Positions 31,593 through 48,741 of a stretch of 64,000 nucleotides of DNA are shown here, in pieces; within the stretch, counting starts at the first letter, position 1; the number at the start of each line of letters is the position of its first letter. A program made the position numbers and the translations under genes. The stretch spans positions 62,001 through 126,000 of the forward strand of contig NZ_FOCX01000004.1 in NCBI RefSeq assembly GCF_900110215.1, written 5' to 3'. Source of the DNA: Halorientalis persicus (lineage in GTDB: Archaea; Halobacteriota; Halobacteria; Halobacteriales; Haloarculaceae). Under the pieces are notes generated by a model. It made no database searches and was not told where the DNA came from. It saw only the letters and a program-made list of their open reading frames with translations.

Positions 31593-32216
31593 ATGGGAGT
31601 CCTCGAGAACAAGTCCCGGGCCCGGCTCTTCTACAAGTACCTCTCGAAGGTGTACGACCAGATCAATCCGTTCATCTGGAACGAAGAGATGCGTACGGCG
31701 TCCATCGACCTGCTCGACATCGAGCGTGACGACCGTGTCCTCGACATCGGGTGTGGCACCGGCTTCGCGACCGAGGGCCTGCTCGACCGCGTCGATACGG
31801 TGTACGGCCTCGATCAGAGCCCCCACCAGCTGGAGAAAGCCTACGAGAAGTTCGGCAAACGGGACGGCCCCGTGAAGTTCCACCTCGGCGACGCCGAACG
31901 GCTCCCCTTCCGCGAGAACACCTTCGACGTGGTGTGGTCCTCGGGCTCTATCGAGTACTGGCCCAACCCCGTCGACGCCCTCGAGGAGTGTCGCCGCGTC
32001 GCCAAACCAGGCGGCCAGGTGCTGATCGTTGGCCCCAATTACCCCAACTCCTCGGTGTTCCAGCGACTCGCCGACGCCATCATGCTCTTTTACGACGAGC
32101 GCGAGGCTGACCGGATGTTCCGCGAGGCCGGCTTCGTCGACTTCGAACACCACACGATGGGGCCCGATTACAACCCGGAGATCGCGATCACGACGGTGGC
32201 GACGGTGCCGGAGTAG
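31593..32216 (+). CDS. class I SAM methyltransferase, MPBQ/MSBQ-type
   Basis: 207-residue methyltransferase with the SAM motif VLDIGCGTGFATEGLLD (residues ~48-64), GDAERLPFRENTFDVVWSSGS and PGGQVLIVGPNYPNS. The N-terminal YKYLSKVYDQINPFIWNEEMR resembles the archaeal/plant VTE3 group that methylates quinone precursors, so a role in menaquinone methylation is plausible. The substrate is inferred. The last 51 coding bases plus the stop are repeated downstream at 32323-32375 after a two-hairpin element. Confidence 0.85.
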   Translation: MGVLENKSRARLFYKYLSKVYDQINPFIWNEEMRTASIDLLDIERDDRVLDIGCGTGFATEGLLDRVDTVYGLDQSPHQLEKAYEKFGKRDGPVKFHLGDAERLPFRENTFDVVWSSGSIEYWPNPVDALEECRRVAKPGGQVLIVGPNYPNSSVFQRLADAIMLFYDEREADRMFREAGFVDFEHHTMGPDYNPEIAITTVATVPE

Positions 32217-32375
32217 CGGGGTGTGGGCCCGAGCGCGAAGGACGTGAGCGCTCGGGTTTTTCGCCCACGTTTTTCGCCGAGTGGTCGTGAGCGCAGCGAA
32301 CGACCCGAGGCGAAAAAGGTGGGACTACAACCCGGAGATCGCGATCACGACGGTGGCGACGGTGCCGGAGTAGCG
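32166..32375 (+). repeat. two-hairpin element, site A, flanked by 53-bp copies of the gene end
   Basis: Copy 1 (32166-32218) is the last 17 codons and stop of the methyltransferase gene. Copy 2 (32323-32375) matches at 52 of 53 positions, and the one change (GAT to GAC) is synonymous. Between them lie hairpin 1 (32228-32261, CCCGAGCGC...GCGCTCGGG then TTTTT) and hairpin 2 (32264-32323, CCCACgTTTTTCGCC...GGCGAAAAAgGTGGG). Confidence 0.85.
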
Positions 32376-35651: not shown

Positions 35652-36446
35652 ATGAAGATTCTCGTAACGGTAAAGGAGGTGGCGGAAGTCGAGGACGAGT
35701 TCGAGATCTCCGGCGGCGATATCGCCGAGCAGTATCTCGAATACGACCTCAACGAATGGGACGACTACGCCGTCGAGGAAGCCGTCCAGATCAGCGAGGC
35801 CGAGGACGACGTGGAGGTCGTCACGGCGACGATCGGTCCGGAGCGGTCCGAGGAGACCATCCGGATGGCGCTGGCGAAGGGTGCCGACCGCGCGATCCGC
35901 GTGTGGGACGACGACATCGAGAGCACGGGCAAGCTCGACGTCGACACCAAGGCCGAACTGCTCGCGGGCGTCGTCGAGGAGGAAGACCCCGATCTGGTCC
36001 TGACCGGCGTCCAGGCCGGTGACGAGTCCAACGGCGCGACGGGCGTCACACTGGCGGAAAAGATCGGCTTCGAGTGGGCTGCCGTCGTCAACCAGCTCGA
36101 TCTCGACATCGAGGGTGGCGTCGCGAACGTCCACCGCGAACTCGAAGGTGGTGTCGAGGAACTCACCGAGGTCGAGAGCCCCGCCGTGCTGACGATCCAG
36201 TCCGGGATCAACGAGCCCCGCTACGCCAGCCTGCGCGGTATCCGCCAGGCCCAGAGCAAGCCCCTCGACGTGCAGACGCTGGACGACGTCGGCCTCTCGG
36301 CTGACGACCTCGAGAGCCCGCTGGCCCAGACCGATATGTACGAGCCCGAGTCCGAGGGCGACGCGACGGTCTGGAGCGGTGACGCAGAGGAGACGGCCGG
36401 GCAGCTGGCTGAATTCCTCCGCGACAAAGGGGTGGTCGAAGGATGA
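35652..36446 (+). CDS. etfB: electron transfer flavoprotein beta subunit
   Basis: Binds AMP/FAD with EtfA and passes electrons from dehydrogenases to the quinone pool. 264 residues with N-terminal MKILVTVKEVAEVEDEFEI, the conserved NEWDDYAVEEAVQI and the AMP-binding LTGVQAGDESNGATG. I start at the ATG at 35652, preceded by GGTGAG 6 nt upstream; a GTG at 35646 is in frame. etfA overlaps by 4 nt. Confidence 0.95.
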   Translation: MKILVTVKEVAEVEDEFEISGGDIAEQYLEYDLNEWDDYAVEEAVQISEAEDDVEVVTATIGPERSEETIRMALAKGADRAIRVWDDDIESTGKLDVDTKAELLAGVVEEEDPDLVLTGVQAGDESNGATGVTLAEKIGFEWAAVVNQLDLDIEGGVANVHRELEGGVEELTEVESPAVLTIQSGINEPRYASLRGIRQAQSKPLDVQTLDDVGLSADDLESPLAQTDMYEPESEGDATVWSGDAEETAGQLAEFLRDKGVVEG

Positions 36447-37414
36447 CGGACGTTCTCGCCGTCACCGAGCACCGCCGTGGCGAACTGCGCGACGTGAGCC
36501 TCGAGATGGTCACGGCCGGCCGCGACCTGGCCGACCAGACCGGCGGCGACCTCCACCTGGCCGTCATCAGCGGCGACGTGGACGACTACGCCGAGCAGGT
36601 CAACCGTGAGGGCGTCGACGCCATCCACACCGTCGAGTACGGTGAGGAGTTCAACCACGACGTCTACACGCAGGCCATCGAACAGCTCTACGCCGAGGTC
36701 GACCCGCAGTACCTGCTGGCCCCCAACTCGGTCAACGGGATGGACTACGCCCCGGCCGTCGCCGAGGGCCTCTCCCTGCCGCTGGTCACCGACGCGGTCG
36801 ATCTGGCGGCAGACGACGGCCTCACCGTCACGCGCGAACAGTACGGTGGCAAGGTCGAAACGACCATCGACGTGGAAGAAGACCACGCCGCCGTGACGAT
36901 TCGGCCGGCCGAGTGGCCCCAGGCCGAGGGTGACGGCGACGCCGCCATCGAGGCGTTCGACGCCGACATCGACGAGAGCCAGATCCAGTCGACCGTCACC
37001 GGCTTCGAGGAAGTCGCCGGCGGCGACGTGGACATCAGCGAAGCGGACTTCCTGGTCTCCATCGGTCGTGGGATCGACGAGGAGGAGAACCTCCCGCTGA
37101 TCGAGGCGCTGGTCGAGGCGACCGACGCCACGCTGTCGTCGTCCCGTCCGATCGTCGACAACGGCTGGCTCCCCGCCAACCGGCAGGTCGGCCAGTCCGG
37201 GAAGGTCGTCACGCCCGACGTGTACATCGCCATCGGCATCTCCGGTGCCGTCCAGCACGTCGCCGGGATGAAGGGCGCAGACACCATCGTCGCGATCAAC
37301 ACCGACCCCAACGCACCCATCTGGGACCTCGCCGACTACGGCATCGAAGACGACCTCTTCGAGGTCGTGCCGGCCCTCATCGAGGAGTTCGGCGGCGACG
37401 TGCCGGACGTGTAA
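36443..37414 (+). CDS. etfA: electron transfer flavoprotein alpha subunit
   Basis: 323 residues. C-terminal FAD-binding part: SRPIVDNGWLPANRQVGQSGK, ISGAVQHVAGM and IVAINTDPNAPIWDLADYGIEDDLFEVVP. The N-terminal half has the ETF fold (VLAVTEHRRGELRDVSLEMV). Partner of EtfB; ATGA overlap with it indicates coupled translation. Its last codons, stop and following T-tract are repeated at 37586-37664. Confidence 0.95.
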   Translation: MTDVLAVTEHRRGELRDVSLEMVTAGRDLADQTGGDLHLAVISGDVDDYAEQVNREGVDAIHTVEYGEEFNHDVYTQAIEQLYAEVDPQYLLAPNSVNGMDYAPAVAEGLSLPLVTDAVDLAADDGLTVTREQYGGKVETTIDVEEDHAAVTIRPAEWPQAEGDGDAAIEAFDADIDESQIQSTVTGFEEVAGGDVDISEADFLVSIGRGIDEEENLPLIEALVEATDATLSSSRPIVDNGWLPANRQVGQSGKVVTPDVYIAIGISGAVQHVAGMKGADTIVAINTDPNAPIWDLADYGIEDDLFEVVPALIEEFGGDVPDV

Positions 37415-37664
37415 GTCGGGTAAATCTACTTCGTTTTTTCGCACGGCGACTGGTCGTGAGCCACTGCTGTCGTTGGGCTGATATTGTACCGGACGCGAGG
37501 CCGGAGGCCGAGTGTCCGGCTTTTTCGCCCACGTTTTTGCGCGAGTGGGTCGCCCCGCGACCCCGAGCGGAAAAAGGTGGCATCCGAGGAGTTCGGCGGC
37601 GACGTGCCGGACGTGTAAGTCGGGCCAACTCGATTCTTTTTCCGCGCGGCGACTGGTCGTGAGC
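37382..37664 (+). repeat. two-hairpin element, site B, flanked by ~80-bp copies of the etfA end
   Basis: Copy 1 (37382-37461) spans the last ten codons of etfA, the stop, a T6 tract and CGACTGGTCGTGAGC. Copy 2 (37586-37664) repeats all of this with several changes outside the coding part. Between them: hairpin 1 (37489-37525, CCGGAC...GTCCGG then TTTTT) and hairpin 2 (37528-37580, CCCACgTTTTTGCG...CGGAAAAAgGTGG). This fills most of the 355-bp gap before the alcohol dehydrogenase gene; no gene lies in it. Confidence 0.8.
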
Positions 37665-42107: not shown

Positions 42108-43103
42108 ATGATATCCAAGGGCTGTGAACAGTGCGCCGAGGGCGGCAAGCTCGTCCTCTTCGTCTACGGCTATTGCGACCAGCGTGACTGTTTCTACTGC
42201 CCGCTCGGCGAGAACCGCAAGAACGTCACCGACGTGTATGCCAACGAACGCCTCGTCGAGGACGACCAGGACGTAATTGAGGAGGCCGAGCGCATGGACG
42301 CCCTCGGAGCCTCGATCACCGGCGGCGAACCCCAGGAGGCGATGGAGCGGACCACTCGCTATCTCTCCCTGCTCAAAGACGAGTACGGCGAGGACTTCCA
42401 CACCCACCTCTACACCGGTATCACGGGTGGCCGCGAGAATATGCGCCGCCTCTCGGCGGCCGGCCTCGACGAGATCCGCTTTCACCCACCCTTCGAGCAG
42501 TGGGGCGACCTCCACGGCACCGAGTGGGAAGACATCCTCTATGTCGCCCGCGAGGAAGGGCTGACGCCTGCCTTCGAGATCCCCGGCATTCGCCCGGAGA
42601 CGGAGTTTCTGGAGTTCCTGGAGGAGGGCGCGGCCGACTTCTGCAACATCAACGAGTTCGAGATGTCCGACGGCAACTACCGGCGGATGCAGGAGGAAGG
42701 GTACGAGCGGAAAGAGGGGCACATGAGCGCCGTCGAGAACTCCCGCGAGGAGATTCTGGAGGTCATGGGCGATCACGAGAAGGTCTACTTCTGTACCTCC
42801 GTATTCAAAGACGCTGCCCAGCACCGGCGGCGGCTCAAACGGATGGCTCGCACGATCCGCCGACCGTTCGACGAGGTGACCGACGACGGGACGCTCGTCT
42901 ACGGGAAGACCTGGGCCGATCCCGAGCGCTTCGAGAACCTGGGCGTGCCCGAGGAGTTCTATACTGTGAAATCCGACCACGTCGAGGTGGCGTGGTGGTT
43001 GCTCGAAGAGATGATCGCCGACGGCGATCTGGACGAGGGTGAGATCGTCGAGCAGTATCCGTCCTACGACGGGCAGGTCGTAGAGCGGACGCCGGTTGCC
43101 TGA
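42108..43103 (+). CDS. radical SAM protein, COG2108 type
   Basis: 331-residue radical SAM enzyme related to pyruvate formate-lyase activases; reaction unknown. N-terminal CEQC (Cys6, Cys9) precedes the cluster motif GYCDQRDCFYCPLG. Here the spacing is C-x4-C-x2-C (Cys23, 28, 31), one residue longer than the standard C-x3-C-x2-C. SITGGEPQEA gives the SAM-binding GGE, and FHTHLYTGITGGRENM follows. The last codons and stop occur three times downstream, separated by two copies of the two-hairpin element. Confidence 0.88.
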   Translation: MISKGCEQCAEGGKLVLFVYGYCDQRDCFYCPLGENRKNVTDVYANERLVEDDQDVIEEAERMDALGASITGGEPQEAMERTTRYLSLLKDEYGEDFHTHLYTGITGGRENMRRLSAAGLDEIRFHPPFEQWGDLHGTEWEDILYVAREEGLTPAFEIPGIRPETEFLEFLEEGAADFCNINEFEMSDGNYRRMQEEGYERKEGHMSAVENSREEILEVMGDHEKVYFCTSVFKDAAQHRRRLKRMARTIRRPFDEVTDDGTLVYGKTWADPERFENLGVPEEFYTVKSDHVEVAWWLLEEMIADGDLDEGEIVEQYPSYDGQVVERTPVA

Positions 43104-43402
43104 CGCGAGCGACCGGCGGGAGCGAGCGTTTTTGGTGCAGCTTTTTCGACGAGTGGTGGTCGAGCGACTGCGAGACCACCCGCGGAGAAAAAGGTGCTCG
43201 CGGCAGTATCCGTCCTACGACGGGCAGGTCGTAGAGCGGACGCCGGTTGCCTGACGCGAGCGACCGGCGGGAGCGAGCGTTTTTGGTGCAGCTTTTTCGA
43301 CGAGTGGTGGTCGAGCGACTGCGAGACCACCCGCGGAGAAAAAGGTGCTCGTGGCAGTATCCGTCCTACGACGGGCAGGTCGTGGAGCGGACGCCTGTCT
43401 AA
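43052..43402 (+). repeat. two-hairpin elements, site C: two 151-bp units and a third gene-end copy
   Basis: Gene-end copies begin at 43052, 43203 and 43354 (exactly 151 bp apart). Copies 1 and 2 are identical and end with codons for TPVA then TGA. Copy 3 ends TPV then TAA (43400-43402). Elements lie at 43104-43200 and 43255-43351: a GCGAGCG...CGAGCG segment then TTTTT, followed by GCAGCTTTTTCG...GGAGAAAAAGGTGC. The remaining 43403-43523 holds the transducer promoter. Confidence 0.88.
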
Positions 43403-46455: not shown

Positions 46456-46627
46456 GTCAGAGCAAAGCTCTGACGAGCGCCCCCTCGTTCCCTGCGGTCA
46501 CTCGCGGGCACACTCGACGCGACCGCTGGTCGCGTCGAGGCAGTTTTTATACTAAATTTTTGCGAGGAGTGGTTCGGGCGGAGCGCGAACCCGACGAAGT
46601 AAAAATTCAGTCGATGAAAATTCAGTC
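46456..46627 (+). repeat. two-hairpin element, site E, downstream of the DUF5786 gene
   Basis: Hairpin 0: GTCAGAGC-aaa-GCTCTGAC (46456-46474). Hairpin 1: CTCGACGCGACC-gct-GGTCGCGTCGAG (46513-46539), followed by TTTTT. Hairpin 2: 46551-46611, ACTAAATTTTTGC...AAAAATTCAGT around the shared GAGTGG...CCCGA core. An 11-bp repeat AAAATTCAGTC (46602-46612 and 46617-46627) includes the stop codon region of the minus-strand gene. The rest of 46341-46621 has no gene. Confidence 0.75.
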
Positions 46628-48619: not shown

Positions 48620-48741
48620 CCGCGCGCCTGTGGCGCGCGGTTCTACGCGAGCGCGGCATCGCCGCGCTCGCGCCTTTTTCGCCCACGTTTTTGCAAGCGG
48701 GGGTGGCGGCTCGCCGCCACCCCCCGCAGTAAAAAGGTGGG
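48620..48741 (+). repeat. two-hairpin element, site D
   Basis: Three hairpins: CCGCGCGCC-tgt-GGCGCGCGG (48620-48640), CGAGCGCGGC-atc-GCCGCGCTCG (48648-48670) followed by TTTTT, then 48682-48741: CCCACgTTTTTGC...GCAGTAAAAAgGTGGG with a near-perfect GGTGGCGGC/GCCGCCACC inner stem. The gene-end repeat is only nine bases (GCGGTAGCG around the stop at 48590 and again ~12 bp on). It fills the 189-bp gap before the TRAM gene. Confidence 0.8.

Follow-up and report, generated by a model that had tools for sequence, protein, structure and literature searches.

The window, i.e., the entire stretch of 64,000 nucleotides of Halorientalis persicus DNA that was analyzed, harbors a radical SAM gene whose 3' end is present three times. 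The locus comprises the following features:

42108–43103, plus strand: radical SAM gene, 331 amino acids, now ending TPVA-TGA (Pfam PF04055, E = 3.2e-07)
43052–43096, plus strand: gene-end copy 1, used by the radical SAM gene and running on with TTGCC-TGA to 43103
43097–43202, plus strand: element copy 1, composed of the stop codon, a hairpin-1 region, T5 (43129–43133), N8 GGTGCAGC (43134–43141), T5 (43142–43146), hairpin 2, A5 (43188–43192) and GGTGCTCGCG to 43202
43203–43247, plus strand: gene-end copy 2, same sequence as copy 1
43248–43353, plus strand: element copy 2 (T5 43280–43284, A5 43339–43343)
43354–43402, plus strand: gene-end copy 3 with stop codon TAA, the displaced native end, matching the empty site of genome G004 including the downstream DNA

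The three 45-bp gene ends (43052–43096, 43203–43247 and 43354–43398) follow each other at start-to-start distances of 151 and 151 bp. Over their 45 bp, copies 1 and 2 do not differ, and both then read GTT-GCC-TGA (stop codons at 43101–43103 and 43252–43254); copy 3 is 96% identical to them over 45 bp and then reads GTC-TAA (43400–43402). Sequence comparison thus confirmed the preliminary description of this locus with respect to the two different endings, TPVA-TGA in copies 1 and 2 and TPV-TAA in copy 3, and to the 151-bp spacing. Its statement of identity between copies 1 and 2 is correct for the gene ends but not for the whole 151-bp units, which are 99% identical and differ in one base (unit 1 closes with GCTCGCG, unit 2 with GCTCGTG). 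Chance is excluded as the source of these repeats. Tandem units of this type are also present elsewhere in the genus (assemblies G002, at 1685310/1685461, and G003, at 1764882/1765030). The true number of units at the radical SAM locus could exceed two, because the H. persicus assembly is a draft of 121 contigs.

The native end of the radical SAM gene

The radical SAM gene is present in all seven other genomes of the genus, and none of them has an element at that site. In G004, the closest relative, the element-free gene ends with CGGACGCCGGTC-TAA followed by ATCCGTACTGCATGGAGATTCGCGCTCCGCG. Copy 3 reads CGGACGCCTGTC-TAA-ATCTTTACTGCAGGGAGATTCACGCTCCGCG and matches both the gene end of G004 and its downstream DNA; therefore, copy 3 is the native end, and two units of gene end plus element lie upstream of it. 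The empty site supports the earlier proposal that copy 3 is the original end, and the evidence also fits the proposal that an element plus a gene end was placed upstream and then doubled. As compared to G004, copies 1 and 2 have GTA instead of GTG and copy 3 has CCT instead of CCG, each being about one base off in the remaining shared stretch. A serine codon TCC occurs in all three copies and in no other member of the genus. Since TCC is common to all three copies, the shared 45-bp stretch belongs to the lineage of H. persicus itself and is mostly not foreign.

Furthermore, the element-free gene of G007 ends with GTC-GCC-TGA-CGC, which corresponds to the form of copy 1 (GCC-TGA-CGC), and the endings TPVA and TPLA are common in the genus and the family. 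Judged from these sequences, the ending of copy 1 likely stems from a different natural allele and was brought in with the element, rather than being a newly gained codon. The gene has gained a codon and a different stop, as had been suggested, at this locus only; as a general statement this does not hold, because TPVA/TPLA endings are common and G007 carries the copy-1 end without an element. The comparison of orthologues proposed earlier gave a divided answer: element-free G007 in the copy-1 form speaks against copy 3 as the ancestral form, whereas the syntenic empty site of G004 points the opposite way. The radical SAM gene tree resolves G000, G004 and G007 too poorly to polarize TPV versus TPVA.

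Hairpin elements and duplicated gene ends

The DNA between the radical SAM gene ends consists of TTTTT-N8-TTTTT, a hairpin and AAAAA-GGTG. This arrangement is not confined to one locus, as the preliminary description had assumed, but belongs to a pattern found across the class. The window contains two further duplicated cases:

32166–32218, plus strand: end of a methyltransferase gene (ORF 31593–32216), presumably UbiE-like, as named by reading the sequence and not by family search; working copy
32219–32322, plus strand: second element (T5 32257–32261, A5 32313–32317, GGTGG)
32323–32375, plus strand: duplicate methyltransferase gene end, 52/53 identical, stop codon kept
37381–37461, plus strand: end of the electron transfer flavoprotein alpha (ETF-alpha) gene (ORF 36443–37414; Pfam PF00766) and its 3' flank; working copy
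37521–37580, plus strand: third element (T5 37521–37525, A5 37571–37575, GGTGG)
37585–37664, plus strand: second copy of the ETF-alpha gene end with its 3' flank

The general plan of the family is hairpin, T5-N8-T5, hairpin, A5-GGTGG, and full copies read AGCATCC-hairpin-GGTTCAC-hairpin-T5-CGCCCACG-T5-hairpin-A5-GGTGG. Complementary ends pertain to hairpin 2 only and not to the whole unit. The pattern was detected at 36 places in the H. persicus genome and at 16–57 places in each of the seven other genomes, with a single hit in total for the reversed pattern. Elements were located by an exact T5/A5 pattern search, which overlooks elements whose T or A tracts are shorter (as at L247, a methyltransferase locus recognized by eye); the counts of elements and duplicates are lower bounds. 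In element copy 1, N8 pairs with the bases after A5. N8 varies by subtype along with these bases and pairing is retained (CCCACG/GGTGG, CTAAA/TTTAG, CCATG/GATGG, GTAGA/GGTAC), with a mean of 4.68 pairs of 6 as compared to 4.22 (sd 0.04) after shuffling.

In 249 of 263 copies, the element strand (the one given here) has a better fold than the complementary strand. Symmetric GA/GA internal loops are present in many stems, and only on the element strand (e.g., window 37486–37520). These loops suggest selection on an RNA-type structure. Better folding of one strand together with the GA/GA loops points to an element that would work in one strand, as RNA or as single-stranded DNA. T-tract terminators of Haloferax volcanii carry the motif T5C (PMC7237163). 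Among the 228 elements of the genus, sequence and folding revealed T5C downstream of genes, often after a hairpin; as in haloarchaeal terminators, the T5 tracts follow hairpins next to stop codons, and T5C is present on both strands in many copies. The element likely acts as a transcription terminator, because its T5C tracts match the efficient Haloferax motif (PMC7237163). Descriptions of known haloarchaeal terminators, in contrast, mention neither a duplicated gene end nor the fixed T5-N8-T5-hairpin-A5 plan. The family consists of haloarchaeal, strand-specific hairpin elements of about 80–130 bp which resemble transcription terminators. No known structured RNA family was recognized: Rfam 15 gave no gathering-score match in six element loci and chance-level matches only at the radical SAM locus.

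Elements within one genome are no more similar than elements of different genomes, and hence there is no sign of recent transposition bursts; elements at the same gene resemble each other more than other elements. Two identical elements lie near both ends of one 3.38-Mb contig (G006:C1, 11103–11174 and 3372833–3372904). At 46590–46625 of the window, the element end AAAAATTCAGTC recurs a few bases on (GATG-AAAATTCAGTC), and similar doublets occur at L020 and L098.

When the flanks of 228 elements of the genus (eight genomes) were compared, 51 elements had a direct repeat across the left and right flank, as against 24 of 4,525 mispaired controls; a score of at least 34 was required, and this threshold, the T5/A5 pattern and a 90-codon gene rule were our choices. 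The right copy begins 0–14 bp after A5 in all 51 cases. Nearly all of these repeats correspond to the end of the protein gene upstream; in two, the end of a tRNA gene is repeated. The repeat starts 24–105 bp ahead of the last base of the stop codon (55 loci, median 55), and the flanking repeats are gene ends of about 25–140 bp. Homology often halts at the stop codon, in many near-identical pairs within two bases of it, and sometimes extends up to the T-tract (e.g., L104, L121, L299). Analysis of base composition at 67 gene-internal junctions revealed no strong target motif; ACAT was weakly enriched (8 of 67 versus 1.7 elsewhere). Elements situated immediately behind a gene, on its strand, are joined closely to the end of that gene, and the foot of hairpin 2 (A5-GGTGG) is joined to another, incomplete copy of this end.

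Among repeat-free elements, the stop codon of a convergent gene lies at most 11 bp from A5, on the GGTGG or TTTAG side, in 101 of 177, versus 0 of 51 in the duplicated class. Two elements of the window (46544–46605 and 48675–48735) abut a convergent stop codon, and the ATACTAAA subtype contributes part of the stop codon of the convergent gene. Beside the elements at L003 (1316–1700), L067 and L070, tRNA genes (Arg, Lys) have extra copies of their last 22–38 bp, in an orientation opposite to that of the protein-gene cases.

Distribution and divergence of the duplicated ends

Two genes were traced through the family (55 radical SAM and 35 methyltransferase loci). A gene-end copy was present in 20 of 22 loci with a recognized element and, by the same test, in 0 of 68 loci of these two genes without a recognized element. 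Occurrence at radical SAM loci is patchy (13/55), and at one and the same gene the element type (N8) and the junction vary between genera. Element-free counterpart sites were seen in relatives. Of 59 genomes sampled from the class, 31 contained the element pattern (21 of 31 genera), with zero hits for the control. Gene-end copies are also present in other families, where seven of eight distinct duplicated genes are orthologous to genes hit in this genus, namely those of the radical SAM protein, ETF-alpha, M29 peptidase, IlvD, a GST/glutaredoxin-like protein, phosphate acetyl/butyryl transferase and PheT. Genes hit repeatedly across genera or families are ornithine carbamoyltransferase, ETF-alpha, NuoI, HisH, IlvD, PheT and radical SAM. 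Some junction oddities are common to several species (CATCCGAGG in L047, L211 and L082; GGGACTGGGAC in L262, L266 and L323).

Identical tandem units lie behind the same radical SAM gene in another species (L271), and the L036 array combines different elements with different gene-end versions; such arrays of mixed units or of identical ones, as at L271 and the radical SAM locus of H. persicus, fit recombination through the repeats. Behind an M29 peptidase gene in another family, three (L339; G078:C2, 11074–11331) and two (L340; G081:C1, 1544892–1545043) tandem units of about 100 bp were observed.

Working and displaced copies differ at codon positions 1, 2 and 3 in 20, 17 and 89 cases. The third-position share of 89/126 has P = 2e-6 against one half, with related loci counted separately, so that the counts are not independent. 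A functionless, decaying copy is expected to show at most about 1:1:2 over the codon positions. The excess at third positions therefore suggests that the two copies descend from two coding lineages, not from decay of one copy. Stop codons are unlike in 9 of 42 pairs in which the stop is retained. The displaced copy shows 95.5% identity to its own gene versus 70.5% to the same gene elsewhere, and of 148 ordered pairs, 143 (including 40/40 across genera or families) place the downstream copy nearer to its own gene than to the orthologue of a different genome. This likeness to the own gene fits recurrent insertion or continuing homogenization.

Origin of the triple end and relation to known systems

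The triple end is probably one instance of a family of terminator-like elements joined to gene ends, in which the resident end was displaced and the unit multiplied. A unit of the alternative end TPVA-TGA plus an element would have entered the resident gene within its final ~50 bp; the new end would then serve the radical SAM gene, with the native end (copy 3, TPV-TAA) pushed downstream, and unequal recombination between the direct repeats so formed would have doubled the unit. It is established that the native end was displaced, that the elements form a family with a precise junction at the hairpin foot, that they are linked to gene-end copies and that they recur at orthologous genes. Gene end and element presumably arrived together, and the tandem pair was presumably made by unequal homologous recombination. 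This explanation is favored by the match of copy 3 and its downstream DNA to the empty site of G004, by the copy-1 motif GCC-TGA-CGC in the element-free G007 end, by the flank repeats (51/228 versus 24/4,525) and the family loci (20/22 versus 0/68), and by the differing stops (9/42), the third-position excess, the mixed L036 array and the tandem units of L271. Against it stands TCC in all copies, so that donor and recipient would have been conspecific or the copies homogenized. No mobilizing gene or intermediate was identified, with TnpA/TnpB searched for in the immediate flanks, and the missing strong motif at gene-internal junctions and the missing sign of recent transposition bursts count against it as well.

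Alternatively, the element alone might transpose with a very long target-site duplication, 25–140 bp between staggered cuts being copied; both ends would then be the host's own, and differences in stop codons and C-termini would have arisen later. The shared TCC codon, the difference of about one base that separates copies 1/2, and likewise copy 3, from the empty site of G004 in the remaining shared stretch, the repeats passing the stop to the T-tract (L104, L121, L299) and the duplicated tRNA 3' ends agree with this. However, a staggered cut is blind to the position of a stop codon, and homology often ends within two bases of the stop and stops often differ; the third-position excess (89/126) also goes beyond the decay of one copy. 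We regard this explanation as rather unlikely.

The modules might also be ancient at a fixed set of genes and inherited vertically, with gene conversion or unequal crossing-over matching each duplicate to its own gene. Such homogenization would account for the 143/148 ordered pairs (40/40 across genera or families) nearest to the own gene, the 7/8 orthologous targets in other families, the greater likeness of same-gene elements and the junction oddities common to species. It is difficult to reconcile with the patchy occurrence (13/55 radical SAM loci), with N8 types and junctions that differ at one gene and with a radical SAM locus empty in G004 and without an element in the rest of the genus, and appears decidedly unlikely. 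A simple tandem duplication, or slippage, involving a gene end plus its terminator and no mobile element would agree with the tandem units at several loci; it is rejected as very improbable, because it would leave an element after the last copy, where none is present at the radical SAM locus or most single-element loci, and the G004 site is wholly element-free. An assembly artefact is hardly conceivable despite the 121-contig draft, as the units differ by one base and the same anatomy occurs in many assemblies, including some of one to five contigs.

Short non-coding repeats are known from haloarchaea: the SMR-A and SMR-B of Haloquadratum, of which SMR-A has about 110 bp, possess inverted terminal repeats, make no target duplication, target PATEs and IS605 elements and are mobilized in an enigmatic way, and Haloquadratum MITEs have terminal repeats in common with a transposon (PMC3119063). 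Our elements are likewise short, non-coding and haloarchaeal, but they are flanked by the end of a host gene and lack the combination of inverted terminal repeats with no or a few-bp target duplication. Elements of the IS605 type make no target duplications and need a 4–6 bp target (PMC3119063). Palindromes near the termini are shared with PATEs and the IS200/IS605 group, but the 67 gene-internal junctions contain no fixed short target, and the duplicate spans tens of bases. SMRs, MITEs and PATEs have not been described with gene-end duplication (PMC3119063).

A closer parallel exists in integrative elements with att sites of the tRNA type. Here, an element-borne gene end replaces that of the host, the displaced end forms a direct repeat, and tandem integration is possible. 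In our family, too, the direct repeat is the end of the target gene and the reading frame is restored; in contrast, the unit of about 100–150 bp has no integrase gene, being too small at ~150 bp to encode one, and many protein genes are involved, each with its own end. Integron attC cassettes place a folded element at a gene 3' end, and TnpB omega-RNA consists of a scaffold followed by a target-matching stretch; both are analogies only, as our elements have no demonstrated integrase or nuclease partner. The arrangement does not fit a CRISPR-like array, because conservation resides in the 'spacer', i.e., the element, whereas the repeat changes with the gene. A search of the open-access literature yielded no description of gene-end duplication by such elements; apparently, the pattern is undescribed and widespread in salt-loving archaea.

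Returning to insertion of gene end and element together, it is possible, and we propose it tentatively, that the family represents a new gene-end-targeted mobile module of Halobacteria. A structured element would carry or copy a specific gene end, re-target orthologues across families, multiply as arrays of gene end plus element and rewrite C-termini and stop codons by an undescribed recombination or RNA-templated mechanism. If so, many haloarchaeal genes carry terminator-like elements which arrived with a copy of the gene's own end; this would provide a route for the exchange of C-termini, stop codons and 3' flanks and would account for short duplicated pieces of genes located behind genes. 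That the same genes are preferred, with a duplicate that nearly always matches the host gene best, would have to be explained by site-directed re-insertion or long-term concerted evolution.

Four plasmid elements of Natrialbaceae are without a gene-end repeat. Unannotated related elements of the AGCGTAGA type occur on closed plasmids of Natrinema, Natronococcus and Natrononativus (L353–L356), and several of these share the left part GGCGGAGGCGTTACCGCTG.
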